A stretch of 37,345 nt of DNA from NCBI GenBank assembly GCA_903930765.1, contig CAIYZV010000300.1, positions 1 to 37,345 on the forward strand, written 5' to 3'. Below, one piece after another: positions 29,006 through 36,358 of this stretch. Numbering within the stretch: position 1 is the stretch's first letter; each line of letters opens with the position of its first letter. The stretch is from an uncultured Pirellula sp. (GTDB taxonomy: Bacteria > Planctomycetota > Planctomycetia > Pirellulales > Pirellulaceae). The position numbers were made by a program, and so were the translations under genes. The notes beneath the pieces were generated by a model. It did not search any database. It saw only the letters and a program-made list of their open reading frames with translations, and was not told where the DNA came from.

Positions 29006-32000
29006 CTAAAGGATCGCGGCTCGCTTTTCTTCCGCCCGCGGTCCCAAATTTCCGTAGCGATGATAATCGAACGAGATGCTCTGCTCGACAACATACCAAA
29101 GCAGTTCCGGAGCCGAAGCGAGTACCGGCGCATCCGCTAAGTAAACAAAGTTCTCGTTAGCAGCGCGCCGGATGGATTCAGGCACACGATCCGAGGATGC
29201 GTACCGAATACGGGGCGCACGGCCTTCTCGAATCGCCTCCTCCAATTCGCTGTCCGATTCATCGACAAACTCGATACGACCCGCCCATGGCAACGTCAAC
29301 TGTTCGAGCACGTCAATCAACTGCTGGCTGGTTTCCGAGCCGCAGGATACGGTCGCTCGACAACCAGAGGCAACCGCTGCGGCGCATCGAGTAACGATCT
29401 CCCAAACCTTATCGCCTGCGTGAACACGAATTCGCATCGGTGAAACAGGCAAATACCGTCGGTGATTGTCTTGTCCTACCAATTTGAAATGATCGTGCTC
29501 TACGAGAATCTCCTCCCTAGCAAATCGATCGTATTGGGACAGCGCTGCCCGAATCTTGTTGATGTCCTCAACACCAGCGTTAGGCAACCCCATCAACGAC
29601 CGGCTCGCGCTCTCTAATCGCTCCCACAAACTCTTCAGGACGGGCAACTGCGGTTTGCTGTCTGCGGCCGGAGTATCCGGCGATTCATTATCTCGTAGCT
29701 CGCTTAGCATGGTCACATAATTCGGACCGCCGGCCTTGGTCCCAGGCCCAAAAGCACTCTTGCCCATGCCTCCAAAAGGCTGACGGAGCACGATGGCGCC
29801 GGTCGTCGGGCGATTGATGTACAGATTCCCAGCCCGAATCCGCTGCCGCCACACCTGCTGCTCGCGGTCGTCGAGCGATTCCAAGCCACTGGTCAGTCCG
29901 TAACCGGTATCGTTGACCATCTCGATGGCTTCATCGAGACGCTGGTAAGGCATCACGCCCAAAACAGGTCCAAACAATTCGGTCATGTGGGTGAAATTCC
30001 CAGGCGTAACGTTCCACTTGACCCCCGGAGTGTAGAGGCACGGATTGTCACCGACCTGGGTTGGCATCACGAGCCAATGCTCGTCATGCTCGAGCTCCTT
30101 CATGCCTCTCAACAGATCGCCCGACGGTGGACGGATCAACGGTCCCAACTTGCTGGATAAATCCCAGGCCGAACCAACCTTCAAGCTGGTGATGGCATCG
30201 GAAAACTGCTCTCGAAACTCCTCGCTGTCGAATACTTCTTGTTCCAACAATAACAACGACGTAGCGCTGCATTTCTGCCCGGAGTGCGAAAACGCGCTAT
30301 GGAGAATATTTTTTACCGCCAAATCGCGGTCGCTGAGACCACTGACGATCGTGGCGTTCTTCCCACCCGTCTCGGCGAGCAGCTTCAACATCGGATTGGC
30401 AGCCAGCATCGTTAACGCCGTCTCAGTCCCACCGGTTAGTATCACTCTCGCAATATCGTTGCGTTTAATGATCTTTTCACCCACCAACGCCCCGCTAGAG
30501 GGCAAGAATTGAAGCGCATTTCGCGGCACGCCCGCCTTCCAAAAACATTGGCACATCAAGTAGGCGGGTAAGACCGTATCCGACGCAGGCTTGAGGATCA
30601 CCGTATTGCCAGCGGCCAATGCCGCGGCAACCCCACCGCATGGAATCGCAATCGGAAAATTCCACGGACTGATGACGACCACCGCCCCGGCTGGGCGCAT
30701 GGTGAGATCACGGCTCTGGCTCAAGTCCACCGCGCATCGCGCGTAGAACTCAACAAAGTCGATCGCTTCACTCACTTCAGGATCGCTCTCGGCGATCGTC
30801 TTGCCACCATCCGCGATAGCCGCACCAATCAAATCCCCTCGAGCGATCCGCAACTCCTGAGCAGCTTGTCGCAGGATCCTATATCGATCCACAGGTGCTA
30901 ACGCTCTCCATTGCGACGGATCCTCGACCGCCCATCGGGCCGCTTGCTCGATCTGCGACTCACTGGCCTGATGGTACCTCGCCACGACCACACCCGGACG
31001 CGAGGGGTCCAACGACTCGGTCAATGGCCCAGCTCCATCGACCTCACCATCGCCGATCGATACTGGGATCGATATCGCATTGGCATCGCAACGCCCGATC
31101 CAACCATCGATGATCTCTTGGGCCCAAAGCGAATTGGTGGTCAAACTGAAATCGGTGTCCGGCTCATTGGAGAACGCTTGCCACTGGGATGGTTCGGATG
31201 GCTCCACAGAAACCGCATGGCGATCCTGGGTCTTTCTAGGCCGATTAGAAACTTCACCGATCCGATGTACAGACTCGAGAAAACCATTCTCCAGCCTAGT
31301 CCACGTCGAACTTCCGGCTTGAATTTTAAAAGCATGCCGCAAGAAATTGTCAGGCCCCGTGTTCTCGTCGAGGCGACGGATCAAATAACCGATGGCGTTG
31401 ATGAACTCTTCGCGCTGGCACGCAGGTGCATAGAGCAACATGCTCCGAGCCAATTCAAACATGGCTCGGCGTTGATGGTTCGCCATCCCTTCCAGCATTT
31501 CAAACTGAACGCGAAGAGTCGCCTTCATCGCAACCGCTAACACGACTCCATACGCGAGATCAAACAGGTTATGCGAAGCGATCCCCAAATGAACCGCTTG
31601 GTTGTGGGCAGGAATCATCCCATAGCGGAGCATCCGTTTGTAGTTGGCATCGGTCTCGATCTTGGTGCGATACGGAGCTTGTGGCCAGCCCTTCAGCGAA
31701 GCCTCGACACGCTCCATCTCCATGTTGGCACCCTTCACGATGCGAATCGTTATGGGCGAACCACCCCGCTTTTGCCGTTCGATCGCCCACTGCGTAATGG
31801 ACTCTTGAACCAACGACGAGTCGGGAATATAGGCTTGCAACGCGATCCCACCTCGGACATTCTCAAGCCCCTTGCGAGAGAGGGTTTGCATGAAGATTTC
31901 GGCTGTCAGATGAAGGTCGCGATACTCCTCCATGTCGAGGTACACGAATTTTGGAACACGCGAACCATCCTGCCGAACAAACACTTCCTTCGCAGCCGCT

Positions 32001-32740
32001 CGATACAGCAACTCCAGCCGATCGGAAACCATTCGGATCGTGTTTTTCCTCGCCAAAGCTGATATCTGGGAATAGAGGGTGGAGATCTTGATCGAGACAC
32101 ATTCAATTTCTGGCAATTGCAAGATTGCAAGGTAGCGATCCAATCGCCGCCGCGATTCGCGTTCCCCAAGGATCGCTTCTCCGAGGAAATTAACATTCAT
32201 CCGTACCCCCTCGCGTGTCCGTTCGCGAAGGTGCCCCGCCAGTTTGTCTTTTTCTGCTGGAAGGATCACGTTCGACGTTTCCTTGCGCATCTTCTCCTTC
32301 ACCATCGGGACCGCGACCCCGGGGAGAAACTCTCCAAACGATTGAAACCCCTTGAGGAGCGCCTGGTCAAAAACGCTAAAGAATCTCGGTACGCCTTGAA
32401 CGTCTAAAATATGAACCATCTGGTCCACCACCCGGCCCGGGGAAATGCTGCGGAAGCTTTGGTCCGTGATCTGGGTCAAGGTCGCTTTGTCCTCGGGATG
32501 CTGCAGCATCCGATCGAGTTCCGCTTGCTGCCTGCGCTCCTGCGGTGTCTGCAACTGCGACGCTCTCTCCTGCAGATGCTTGGCAATGGTCAGCGCCGCC
32601 TCGACCAGATTCGGATCGTCGACGGTCCATTCAGAGCGATCGGCCCCCAATGCGTCTCGCCGGGCGACTCCCAGACCGGTCAATACCCCTTCGACCAAGC
32701 CCAAATCCAAGGCTGGGCCGATCCATGTCGACTCTGTCAT
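29006..32740 (-). CDS. putA: bifunctional proline dehydrogenase / L-glutamate-gamma-semialdehyde dehydrogenase
   Basis: A 1244-residue enzyme that oxidises proline to glutamate in two steps. The N-terminal FAD-dependent proline dehydrogenase barrel covers about residues 60-480, with SIKISTLYSQI, VYLDMEEYRDLHLT, VKGANMEMERVEASLKGW and LYAPA. The aldehyde dehydrogenase domain spans about 570-1050, with ISPWNFPIA, the Glu base E790 (LAETGGKN) and the catalytic Cys C824 (SGQKCSA), 34 residues apart as usual. The C-terminal 190 residues form the extra domain of longer PutAs. There is no ribbon-helix-helix DNA-binding domain, so it should not self-regulate like E. coli PutA. AGAGGGG precedes the ATG. 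topoisomerase VI A lies 62 nt upstream on the same strand. Confidence 0.96.
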   Translation of the reverse strand: MTESTWIGPALDLGLVEGVLTGLGVARRDALGADRSEWTVDDPNLVEAALTIAKHLQERASQLQTPQERRQQAELDRMLQHPEDKATLTQITDQSFRSISPGRVVDQMVHILDVQGVPRFFSVFDQALLKGFQSFGEFLPGVAVPMVKEKMRKETSNVILPAEKDKLAGHLRERTREGVRMNVNFLGEAILGERESRRRLDRYLAILQLPEIECVSIKISTLYSQISALARKNTIRMVSDRLELLYRAAAKEVFVRQDGSRVPKFVYLDMEEYRDLHLTAEIFMQTLSRKGLENVRGGIALQAYIPDSSLVQESITQWAIERQKRGGSPITIRIVKGANMEMERVEASLKGWPQAPYRTKIETDANYKRMLRYGMIPAHNQAVHLGIASHNLFDLAYGVVLAVAMKATLRVQFEMLEGMANHQRRAMFELARSMLLYAPACQREEFINAIGYLIRRLDENTGPDNFLRHAFKIQAGSSTWTRLENGFLESVHRIGEVSNRPRKTQDRHAVSVEPSEPSQWQAFSNEPDTDFSLTTNSLWAQEIIDGWIGRCDANAISIPVSIGDGEVDGAGPLTESLDPSRPGVVVARYHQASESQIEQAARWAVEDPSQWRALAPVDRYRILRQAAQELRIARGDLIGAAIADGGKTIAESDPEVSEAIDFVEFYARCAVDLSQSRDLTMRPAGAVVVISPWNFPIAIPCGGVAAALAAGNTVILKPASDTVLPAYLMCQCFWKAGVPRNALQFLPSSGALVGEKIIKRNDIARVILTGGTETALTMLAANPMLKLLAETGGKNATIVSGLSDRDLAVKNILHSAFSHSGQKCSATSLLLLEQEVFDSEEFREQFSDAITSLKVGSAWDLSSKLGPLIRPPSGDLLRGMKELEHDEHWLVMPTQVGDNPCLYTPGVKWNVTPGNFTHMTELFGPVLGVMPYQRLDEAIEMVNDTGYGLTSGLESLDDREQQVWRQRIRAGNLYINRPTTGAIVLRQPFGGMGKSAFGPGTKAGGPNYVTMLSELRDNESPDTPAADSKPQLPVLKSLWERLESASRSLMGLPNAGVEDINKIRAALSQYDRFAREEILVEHDHFKLVGQDNHRRYLPVSPMRIRVHAGDKVWEIVTRCAAAVASGCRATVSCGSETSQQLIDVLEQLTLPWAGRIEFVDESDSELEEAIREGRAPRIRYASSDRVPESIRRAANENFVYLADAPVLASAPELLWYVVEQSISFDYHRYGNLGPRAEEKRAAIL

Positions 32741-32802: not shown

Positions 32803-33954
32803 TCAATCGAGCCAGTCGTTGTTCCGTAGACGCTCTGGCACATACTGCTCGGTCACGTAGCTAATGTCGCGGCTGATCAACGCTTCGACTTCCAACTTGA
32901 AGCCATTGTCGATCATCTTCTTGATCTCCGCTTGCCAAGGTTTTTTGTCGGCGAACCAAGGGTAAGACGCTATTTGCTTCGCCCGCGTACGATCTTTTTC
33001 GTCCAATTTGATCGTGACATTGTCCTTCAACTGGCAACGTTCAAAATCAATGCTGCGAAGACCGATGAACTTCGCATCCGGAATCGCCATCCGCATGCTC
33101 TCAAAGGCCAAGTTGATCGAGCCTTGTTTGATCACACTGTAGATATAATATCCCCATGGATCGTTATCGAGCAAACAGAAAACGGGAAGCTTATGCTCGT
33201 AATGCAGCCGATGCAGCATGCGTCGCACTCCGCGCGAGGGTTGTCCCCCGCCGTGCGAAACGATGCAATTGTGCTTCTTCCAGAACTTGTCTTCGTTGAA
33301 TCGCTGCCAAACAGTACCCTTTTCGACGTGCAGGATGAATTTGGCTTCGCACTTTTTGATACGGACTCGATCCGGCTCCACGATGCTCGGGATCGGGTAA
33401 CCAGCTGCCCCCATGCGGGCCGCGTCGAGTTCATTCTCACCATCGATGAAGACAATCGGACCGGCGAGCGCTCCTTTTGGCTCGGCGTAGAGATGCAATT
33501 CCTCACGCATCGCCCCCGTGATAACCTCCAAATCCTCGATCACGGTATCCGATTCACCCTGTTCCTCGAACGTATTCTCCTTGGTCCCGTCGATCGTCTT
33601 TTTGAGCATGTAGTACAAACCCCGAATGCTCGTATTCTTGCCTTGGCGAATCAATCGAGTGCAACCGCTGCCCACCAGCAAGGTCTGCATGTACGACCGA
33701 GCTTGGTTCAAATTGAACAACTCGCGGCGGTTCTTTTTTTCCCCCATCTCGATGAGCCGCTTCTTGCGGTTAAAATGGCTGTTGGAGAGGGATCGCGAAG
33801 GGACGTCCAAATAAGGGTCTCGCCGTTTTTTTGCGATCTCGACAACGGCACCGGCCAGATTCTGGAGCTTGGCCATCGTTTCGATGTCCCTCCCCTTGAT
33901 CGGCACTTCCTTGTCTTCTTCCTCGTCCGCCGTTCGCTTCGCTTTTTTGGCCAT
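32803..33954 (-). CDS. top6A: DNA topoisomerase VI subunit A (Spo11 family)
   Basis: A 383-residue homologue of archaeal Topo VI A. After a Lys-rich N-terminal extension, the CAP domain has VPSRSLSN and the catalytic Tyr Y115 in SIRGLYY, four residues after R111 as in archaeal R99/Y103 and yeast Spo11 R131/Y135. NTFEEQGESDTVIEDLEV and REELHLYAEPKGALAGPI are typical. The Toprim domain has E211 (HVEKGTVWQRF) and D263/D265 (LLDNDPWGYYIYS), with the same 52-residue spacing as archaeal E197/D249, and the GGGQPSRGVRRM block. It should make and reseal double-strand breaks with subunit B. No B gene is next to it. A strong GGAGG precedes the ATG. Confidence 0.93.
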   Translation of the reverse strand: MAKKAKRTADEEEDKEVPIKGRDIETMAKLQNLAGAVVEIAKKRRDPYLDVPSRSLSNSHFNRKKRLIEMGEKKNRRELFNLNQARSYMQTLLVGSGCTRLIRQGKNTSIRGLYYMLKKTIDGTKENTFEEQGESDTVIEDLEVITGAMREELHLYAEPKGALAGPIVFIDGENELDAARMGAAGYPIPSIVEPDRVRIKKCEAKFILHVEKGTVWQRFNEDKFWKKHNCIVSHGGGQPSRGVRRMLHRLHYEHKLPVFCLLDNDPWGYYIYSVIKQGSINLAFESMRMAIPDAKFIGLRSIDFERCQLKDNVTIKLDEKDRTRAKQIASYPWFADKKPWQAEIKKMIDNGFKLEVEALISRDISYVTEQYVPERLRNNDWLD

Positions 33955-34000
33955 GTCGTTCTTTCCTCCGGTTCGTTCCTCAATGTGTCCCCAGTTTTAC

Positions 34001-34038: not shown

Positions 34039-34205
34039 CGAATCCAACCAAGCCCGTGAGTTACCACCCCTTGAATTACCCGCCCGTGCTTCAATCACCA
34101 GCTAGTAGCACTCTATTTGATTCCGAGATTCCGTTTTGGGAGAGGATACGGTCTGGGTCGCAACGGCCTAACACGCATGAAATCAATGTCGCAACATTCA
34201 CGTAT

Positions 34206-35021
34206 TTGCATGCACCCCTTCTCGCTCTTCTGTTTTGCTGCCTAGTAAAGAGCACCTTCGGCCAGGATGAGTCCGTACCCGCGACGCAGCCATCCAACGC
34301 TGCTGAGCTGACCCATGGATCCCCGCATCCTTGGATCGATACAGCTCCTCCCGCATTTGCTCGCCTGATCTCGCTCGGCCGCGTCCAAATAAAAATCGAC
34401 GATCAGCGTCTCGATGACGCGCGGAAACAAGCATTAACCCACTTCAAAATCAAAGCGGACTACCGCTATCTGTACACGCAACAATCCACGCGGGTCGATC
34501 CCAAAAATGACGGCGGTTACGTCGCGAAGATCAATGCTCGAATTGCGGTACCCGAGATCGAGATCTTACACAACATCTCGATTCGCTCCGGATTCAAACC
34601 GAGAGATCCATGGAAATCGCCATTGATGAAACATGAGTTCGACCATGTGTCCATCAGCACCGATCCTCGATTGTTAAAACTGCTGAAAAAAATTCTAAAT
34701 GGCAAAATCTCGTTCGAAGTTCGATGGACATCCGAGGAACAATTCAGCGACGAGCTTGTGAGCCGAGCGATTAAGGCGGAGATCAACACCCAAATTGCCG
34801 AGATAGAGAGAGTTGTTCAAGCCAACTACGATCGGCTCGATCGAGAGACACGCGATGGCACCATGGATGCCAAGGACTGGGAAGCTCTTTTCAGGTCGAT
34901 GTACGATGTCGATTCGCTCCGAACACTGAAGTTTTTGTATCTGGACGCGACGAAGTCCATTGTGCAAGATAGCCGGGACAAGGACGTCCTCGAGCACTAT
35001 TCTTTACTGGCACCCCCGTGA
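34206..35021 (+). CDS. hypothetical exported protein with HExxH motif
   Basis: I do not recognise the family. The protein has a hydrophobic signal-peptide-like start (LHAPLLALLFCCLV, cleavage near TFGQ). At 34632-34646 it encodes HEFDH, a zincin-like HExxH motif, after SPLMK, so a metallopeptidase is possible but unproven; no third ligand can be pointed to with certainty. The C-terminal part is charged and helical. The start is unclear: TTG at 34206 gives about 271 residues, GTG at 34056 gives 321 with the hydrophobic stretch internal, and an ATG at 34177 is out of frame by one base (see findings). The 3' end overlaps the MFS gene by GTGA. Confidence 0.6.
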   Translation: MHAPLLALLFCCLVKSTFGQDESVPATQPSNAAELTHGSPHPWIDTAPPAFARLISLGRVQIKIDDQRLDDARKQALTHFKIKADYRYLYTQQSTRVDPKNDGGYVAKINARIAVPEIEILHNISIRSGFKPRDPWKSPLMKHEFDHVSISTDPRLLKLLKKILNGKISFEVRWTSEEQFSDELVSRAIKAEINTQIAEIERVVQANYDRLDRETRDGTMDAKDWEALFRSMYDVDSLRTLKFLYLDATKSIVQDSRDKDVLEHYSLLAPP

Positions 35022-36358
35022 ACCCGTCGTCGACTACCACCCATCGCCCTGGCGTTGCCAGCGCGATCGTTTCTCGCATGGAACCGCATTCATCGTCAAC
35101 CGCGAGGCCTTCGGCTTCGTCGATATTCTTCAGCGGTGGCGCATACTTTATCCATTTTTTGGCTTTGGGATTTGCCTCGTTCCCGCTCCAAACACACCTC
35201 CGCCAAGTCCTCGCACCTGCATCGGCAAGCTTGGTTGCTAGCGTTGTTCCGATCGCTGCTTGCTCCACCTACTTCCTGTTCCGCTTTGCCGAATCGCGAG
35301 GCTGGACTCGGTCTCCCCAATGGATGCTTGTCGCGCTGGCTTCGGCGCTTTCGATCATGCAAGCCACCCTCGGGTTGAAGCTTCACTGGGTATCCGGTCA
35401 ATCCTATTGGATCGGGCCGGCCATCGATGTCGCCGCTTGCTTGCTCGTTTTGGGTTGCATCCAATCGAGTTGCATGACCGTCCTCAACCATATCGGTGTC
35501 GCCGCGATGGGAAGCCATGCATACACCGTCCGTGCGGCTGGATCCGCCGGTTACATGGTGGCAGTGATGCTGATGGGTCTCCTAGGTGGTTCGCAGCATG
35601 AGGTCTCTGAACGCCATCTTTTCATCGGCTCTGCCTGCAGCGCAATCCACGCGATCTTCGCTGCCCTGAGCTTTGCGTTCGTACGCTGGGCACCGGCCCC
35701 ACCTCACCCCCAGTCTCAAGCATGCCCCCCCAATGCGGCCTCAATACCACCGGGCGATGCAACCGCAGTTCATCAACCCCGACTTTCCCGCTCCCATTCG
35801 CTCGAGTGGTGGTGCTTGCTCGTGCTGGTCTGGATGATTGCGATGTGCGAAATGTCCTACGGCCTCTACTCGCACGAGTTCCTCACCTCGACGTACGGTG
35901 CCTGGGGGTACTTTGTTTTCGCGACTGCGATCGCGATGGAGATCGGACTTCTTTTGGCTATGCCGCGGCTTAACGCATTGAAGCAGCGTCTCCTTTTTGT
36001 CGGCCCTCTAGGCTGGATCTGTTTGTTCAGCGGTTGCCTACTGGCGATCGCTGGCTGGTACCCGATGGGCTATTTCGCATTGGCTCTCGCCCTCAATTGC
36101 CCATTCCAAGTCTCCGCCAATGAACATGCTCATCGCATGCAGCCGAGCATCCTGGGGGTTGCGTCGATGACGTTGGCGCAATCGTTAGGGTACGTCACAG
36201 CCACATTCGTTGCGGCGTGGACTACAGGAAACGGTAACGGCCCGCAGCGTCTCTGGATGACCATGTGGGTCGTCTCCATCATCGCCTTGATCCTCGCCCT
36301 GTGGAAAATGAACCGAGATCGCATCGAAGCAGCCGCCGACGTAGCCTCGCCTAACTGA
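35018..36358 (+). CDS. MFS-type transporter (nucleoside/sugar-like)
   Basis: A 446-residue membrane protein with about 12 predicted hydrophobic segments in two halves of six, separated by a polar, Pro-rich loop (residues about 225-265). The first half starts near IFFSGGAYFIHFLALGF. The overall look is of the MFS_1-like/nucleoside-proton symporter type, but the substrate cannot be inferred. The GTG start at 35018 overlaps the stop of the preceding exported protein gene as GTGA, so translation is probably coupled; an in-frame ATG at 35078 is an alternative that would shorten the N-terminal polar tail. No Shine-Dalgarno is visible. Confidence 0.72.
   Translation: MNPSSTTTHRPGVASAIVSRMEPHSSSTARPSASSIFFSGGAYFIHFLALGFASFPLQTHLRQVLAPASASLVASVVPIAACSTYFLFRFAESRGWTRSPQWMLVALASALSIMQATLGLKLHWVSGQSYWIGPAIDVAACLLVLGCIQSSCMTVLNHIGVAAMGSHAYTVRAAGSAGYMVAVMLMGLLGGSQHEVSERHLFIGSACSAIHAIFAALSFAFVRWAPAPPHPQSQACPPNAASIPPGDATAVHQPRLSRSHSLEWWCLLVLVWMIAMCEMSYGLYSHEFLTSTYGAWGYFVFATAIAMEIGLLLAMPRLNALKQRLLFVGPLGWICLFSGCLLAIAGWYPMGYFALALALNCPFQVSANEHAHRMQPSILGVASMTLAQSLGYVTATFVAAWTTGNGNGPQRLWMTMWVVSIIALILALWKMNRDRIEAAADVASPN

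Follow-up and report, generated by a model that had tools for sequence, protein, structure and literature searches.

A gene for the A subunit of DNA topoisomerase VI (Topo VI) without a B gene beside it raises the question of whether the bacterium encodes an orphan catalytic subunit or one half of an enzyme whose other half lies elsewhere. The window analysed here, the whole stretch of 37,345 nucleotides from an uncultured Pirellula sp., holds such a top6A gene as a complete open reading frame (32803..33954, minus strand) with an ATG start and a product of 383 amino acids. A GGAGGA motif at 33964..33969 on the same strand, read from the sequence, lies 9 nucleotides before the ATG and corresponds to the strong ribosome-binding site that had been claimed. 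The complete Top6A of the original prediction was borne out in full: the product matched PF21180 in Pfam (E = 1.4e-57), NF003333 in NCBIfam (541.7 bits, cut-off 465) and the S. shibatae Top6A in the PDB (2zbk_A, E = 5.7e-73), a homology which, judged by sequence comparison, is far beyond chance. The catalytic residues were found exactly where they had been placed, R111 and Y115 in the winged-helix part and E211, D263 and D265 in the Toprim part. Each of the five was invariant in all 104 distinct full-length Top6A frames of the fetched loci, our own included, and the product thus combines the winged-helix tyrosine with the Toprim acidic residues looked for in an A subunit of Topo VI.

The best NCBIfam match of the window's Top6A, NF003333, is titled 'DNA topoisomerase IV subunit A' in that collection. 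Judged by its domains, the protein is Topo VI despite this title. The title is misleading, and tallies of topo IV built on such names would come out wrong. In G026, G052, G040, G099 and G005, additional weak Toprim matches (E = 1.2e-10 to 8.4e-5) were obtained as well as the true Top6A; our guess is that they could be remote Toprim nucleases from defence systems.

The surroundings of top6A were as described before. Next downstream, 62 bp away, lies a putA-like gene for a proline dehydrogenase / aldehyde dehydrogenase (29006..32740, minus strand), which is outside Topo VI. Upstream, a divergent ORF (34056..35021, plus strand) had neither a Pfam nor an NCBIfam match. It is followed by an ORF of 446 amino acids (35018-36358) without a Pfam match; a similar ORF was present near top6A in seven of eight near relatives, and in the eighth (L068) the contig ends where its counterpart would be. 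No B gene adjoins top6A in the window, again in agreement with the original prediction.

A partner was nevertheless present in the same genome, and the claim of an A subunit without one did not hold. The genome-wide search for Top6B that had been proposed was run on the window's own assembly, a draft of 527 contigs that is 96% complete, and returned one Top6A gene and one Top6B gene. The latter lies on contig C253 (G000:C253; L003:5375-7318, minus strand) and encodes 647 amino acids, which settled the matter in favor of the suggested option that A pairs with a distant B. Top6B matched PF09239 in Pfam, NF003218 (E = 1.4e-193) and TIGR01052 (480 bits, cut-off 380.7) in NCBIfam, and the M. mazei Top6B in the PDB (E = 4.5e-131). 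GHKL ATPase, H2TH and transducer were all recognised, the canonical H2TH by aligning the protein with archaeal Top6B. The GHKL-type residues fell in invariant columns of an alignment of 55 Top6B proteins, columns which we take to represent the GHKL motifs.

A and B are inherited together in the order. Among 117 genomes sampled from the order, which close relatives bearing the names Pirellula, Blastopirellula, Lacipirellula and Thermogutta mark as Pirellulales, A was found in 110, B in 112 and both in 109; four genomes had neither (G053, G113, G027 and G036), three had B only (G003, G028 and G031) and one had A only (G037). Conservation of B along with A, which had been named beforehand as a mark of an ordinary split Topo VI, was thus observed almost without exception: 109 of the 110 A-bearing genomes gave a B match, and the sole one that did not, G037, is 73% complete.

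Wherever a fetched locus contained both genes (94 of 94 loci, with some genomes represented more than once), B was the upstream gene, in the same orientation as A; gene distances in this comparison were taken between stop-to-stop frames and did not use assigned starts. Within the order, B and A were adjacent in 67 of the 108 genomes in which both were placed, a count that omits G003 and G026 with their B fragment only. The two genes were 50-714 kb apart on one contig in 7 of the 108 and on different contigs in 34, some of these perhaps through contig breaks. The seven genomes with the genes far apart on one contig show that the split is not merely a contig break. The neighborhood check in relatives, likewise proposed before, found top6A next to putA in all eight near relatives (Top6A 82-91% identical; titled Pirellula or Planctomycetota), with a relative of the divergent ORF, 30-45% identical, at the same place in each. 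No B match was present beside A in any of the eight, over an upstream span of 8 kb in four and of 0.7-2.5 kb in the other four. In the next nearest locus, L074, whose Top6A is 73% identical, B and A stand together. A relative of the ORF adjoining our own B gene (L003:7664-8200) also stands upstream of B in L074, L075 and L077, and it therefore appears that A, not B, was relocated in the split lineage.

A further question concerns the task of this enzyme, on which the distribution of type IIA topoisomerases bears. The only PF00521 gene of our own genome encodes a GyrA with a GyrA box; since the assembly is a draft, the lack of a topo IV gene in it is no proof of absence. A second full-length PF00521 (type IIA A subunit) gene was found in none of the 109 order genomes with both Topo VI genes, where G033 and G090 each gave two matches, interpreted as fragments of a single gene, and G056 gave none. 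Two genomes of the same family that have no Topo VI, G053 and G113, both 99% complete, each carry a second full-length PF00521 gene (L146:6064-8535 and L147:4370-8824, both minus strand). These extra genes have neither a GyrA box nor the five-blade match of a true GyrA, and they score below the GyrA cut-offs and also below those for ParC. A GyrB/ParE-type gene adjoins the extra gene in G113 (L147), the one neighborhood of the two that was examined for ParE. In the tree the two genes are sisters on a long branch beside family f21, which looks like one exchange event and not two; a donor was not found in this tree. In f21, a family of the same class, all 16 genomes were without A and B and all 16 had two PF00521 matches, and each of the six genomes read had one copy with a GyrA box and one without. 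G027 (97% complete) and G036 (94%), also without A and B, had a single PF00521 gene all the same; they are either assembly gaps or real counter-examples.

That no second full-length type IIA gene occurs in the 109 genomes while an extra one occurs in G053 and G113 suggests that Topo VI does topo IV's work. This comparison of gene contents lends indirect support to the task in chromosome decatenation that had been suggested beforehand, in which Topo VI would stand in for topo IV. Allen and Maxwell (2024, PMC11302465) report that, outside Pseudomonadota and Terrabacteria, bacteria with topo VI are without topo IV, and mention unpublished work in which an E. coli parE mutant was rescued by M. mazei topo VI. 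Relative to that paper, what is new is the exchange, within a single family, of Topo VI for another type IIA gene.

We are confident that the window gene encodes the A subunit of an ordinary split two-gene Topo VI, an A2B2 enzyme with the B subunit from C253. The B-A pair, kept together in most relatives, has been split in this lineage, leaving A beside putA. A would be made from the window and B from contig C253, and the two would assemble into A2B2, in which A is expected to cut and rejoin one duplex via Y115 and the Toprim metal site, and B to bind ATP, bend DNA and pass a second duplex through. The original prediction had also considered an orphan Spo11-like Top6A that makes double-strand breaks without B. 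A window devoid of a B gene, and eight near relatives with no B match beside A, are what such an enzyme would lead one to expect. Nevertheless, we rejected the orphan on account of the Top6B on G000:C253 and the co-occurrence across the order, where B is kept where A is kept, A stands without B in 1 of 117 genomes (the one that is 73% complete) and four have neither. Furthermore, the models and structures closest to the window's product are those of Top6A, and the GHKL-type residues of B are conserved throughout the 55 aligned proteins; an orphan is extremely improbable. It is also unlikely, to a lesser degree, that Topo VI is active without being the main decatenase, gyrase being sufficient and Topo VI serving a special task, e.g. 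repair or unlinking under stress. In a phylum sample of 68 genomes (completeness 95% or more, contamination no higher than 5%, one of them having B only), at least two PF00521 matches were found in 1 of 26 genomes with Topo VI and in 28 of 41 without it, these being raw matches that may include pieces of one gene and are counted irrespective of shared descent. The other 13 of the 41, all without Topo VI, had one match only and hence no additional type IIA gene; gyrase alone thus seems enough for some planctomycetes. The one Topo VI genome with two matches, and G027 and G036 with neither enzyme, speak for the same view, and the rule that Topo VI and an additional type IIA gene exclude each other is indeed loose in the wider phylum. 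In the order and the class, however, the exchange was clean in the most complete genomes, and Topo VI was kept in 109 of the 117 genomes of the order. The ordinary two-gene Topo VI in this order would most likely perform the chromosome unlinking done by topo IV in other bacteria.

The B subunit of this enzyme carries an insert in its transducer. In the alignment to M. mazei Top6B, the stretch 406-478 of our own Top6B was unmatched, and residues about 422-477 of the 647 (about 56 amino acids) form the inserted domain. In profile comparison the insert matched the protein's own H2TH with 99.0% probability (E = 2.1e-18 over 62 columns), whereas control windows of Top6B not overlapping the H2TH reached at most 1.7%. 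Against the PDB, the insert profile ranked five Top6B sequences first, at their H2TH (E = 2.2e-8 to 2.3e-4), and after these Fpg and uS13 (E = 0.011 and above); a search with the single sequence was weak (best E = 0.4) and also pointed to the Top6B H2TH. The AlphaFold model of the insert (pLDDT 87.3) superposed on the H2TH of M. mazei Top6B (9o0g_B 235-309) with Z = 14.6 and 1.1 Å over 75 of 75 residues. Nine Top6B entries gave Z = 11.5-14.6 and the next family, MutM, Z = 9.5, on a scale where helical bundles may commonly reach values of up to about 13. For the same model, Foldseek gave E = 8.8e-4 and a TM score of 0.89, and in the model of the whole protein both copies had the same four helices with nearly the same spacing. 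By sequence and predicted fold, the insert is a second H2TH (S13-like) domain. A Pfam match to NFACT_N was also obtained in the insert when the whole Top6B was scanned (38.6 bits, cut-off 31). Scanned alone, the canonical H2TH and the insert both gave sub-threshold matches to one and the same NFACT stretch (188-239), with 17.2 and 22.5 bits, and the Top6B H2TH was the best match, for which reasons H2TH was preferred. An assignment as a plain helix-hairpin-helix or NFACT piece was rejected, as the Top6B H2TH matches better in both sequence and fold.

An alpha-helical bundle near the transducer of P. staleyi Top6B, protruding into the cavity, is described in PMC11302465. We infer that this bundle is the insert described here, and its place in the A2B2 cavity is taken from that source. 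The bundle is left unnamed in the passages describing it, and the words 'hairpin', 'HhH' and 'insertion' are absent from its main text. A literature search covering few subscription papers found no paper calling the insert an H2TH, and the match to 'two H2TH' in PMC5922973 corresponded to no such passage in its main text. Relative to PMC11302465, the identification of the bundle as a second H2TH and the gene split are new.

The second H2TH was present in all 55 distinct complete Top6B proteins read. These were drawn from 58 complete ORFs, of which two (L001, L002) repeat our own gene and one is at least 97% alike. Eleven belong to genomes in the order sample; the remaining 44 derive from other fetched loci, five of which are titled otherwise and are of uncertain order (L106, L113, L117 and L124, Acidobacteria or Sulfopaludibacter; L143, Chthonomonadales). 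The PF09239 match was in at least two pieces in 110 of the 112 order genomes with B and in one piece in G003 and G026; a broken match of this kind marks an insert, not its nature. No H2TH was present at the transducer site in any of the 20 B genes examined from beyond the order. Among 132 genomes outside the order with a B match, PF09239 was matched in two pieces in three, all of family f66, and the single-piece matches had a longest span of 588 bases, too short for a 73-residue insert, with a few B genes lying at contig ends. In f66 the same transducer loop of Top6B (L160-L164) bears a charged insert or extension of low complexity. An HMM for the insert counted 101 of 111 loci with a B match at 30 bits; this HMM-only count was dropped, since canonical H2TH domains of relatives can themselves reach 40 bits. 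In a tree of the 56-residue domains, the second copies were monophyletic (0.998), as were the canonical H2TH domains of the same 55 proteins (0.926); the tree does not place the second-copy clade.

As for its function, PMC5922973 and PMC13040014 report that R263, K268 and K308 of the M. mazei H2TH contact gate DNA, and that changing these residues abolishes nucleotide-dependent bending. At the corresponding positions of the insert, transferred by eye from the M. mazei alignment, K or R was found in 0 of 55 proteins, with G in 55 of 55 and N in 51 of 55. The insert thus does not have the residues by which archaeal Top6B is known to contact nucleic acid, which lowers the likelihood that it binds DNA like the first H2TH, not that it is an H2TH. 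Other basic residues are kept, R425 and R455 as well as R or K at 428 in all 55 proteins and K or R at 445 in 54, as is a G-x-G hairpin (54 of 55). We consider that the second H2TH probably uses another surface and would constitute an extra DNA contact in the transducer. The non-basic nature of the three positions would fit a structural spacer or assembly surface that touches no DNA, a possibility that we take seriously but lean against, since the basic residues and the hairpin are conserved and the H2TH folds matched by the insert occur in nucleic-acid binders. A more far-reaching and rather unlikely proposal would see in the Pirellulales a distinct type IIB enzyme, with a B subunit whose DNA-bending H2TH is doubled and whose second copy, in the T-segment cavity, would read the second duplex or the crossing angle. 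It would be a dedicated decatenase replacing topo IV order-wide, with a topo IV-like enzyme where Topo VI was lost.

Where an orphan A subunit would have been unusual, the enzyme found is an ordinary split one, the more so as Topo VI of Pirellulales is already in print (PMC11302465). Its interest lies in an order-wide form of Topo VI with two H2TH domains per B subunit, a domain that bends gate DNA in the archaeal enzyme, and in the natural case, provided by the order, of an exchange of Topo VI with an additional type IIA gene. Together, the duplicated domain and the exchange make the bacterial role of Topo VI testable by genetics and by simple domain deletion.

Compared with the archaeal Topo VI of M. 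mazei (2q2e, 9o0g) and S. shibatae (2zbk), the enzyme shares a full-length A subunit with winged helix and Toprim, a B subunit with GHKL, H2TH and transducer, and all catalytic residues. It differs in that the A and B genes lie apart in the window's genome and that B in Pirellulales has an extra H2TH of about 56 amino acids in the transducer. It is the same enzyme, from the same order, as the Pirellulales Topo VI for which PMC11302465 reports A and B and no topo IV. Spo11 has a homologous catalytic subunit, whereas here the genome also encodes a true Top6B with GHKL and H2TH, which is inherited together with A. With topo IV (ParC/ParE), finally, the enzyme probably shares its cellular job, although Top6A belongs to another family of A subunits, and in G053, G113 and the six f21 genomes read it is a type IIA gene without a GyrA box that takes the place of Topo VI.
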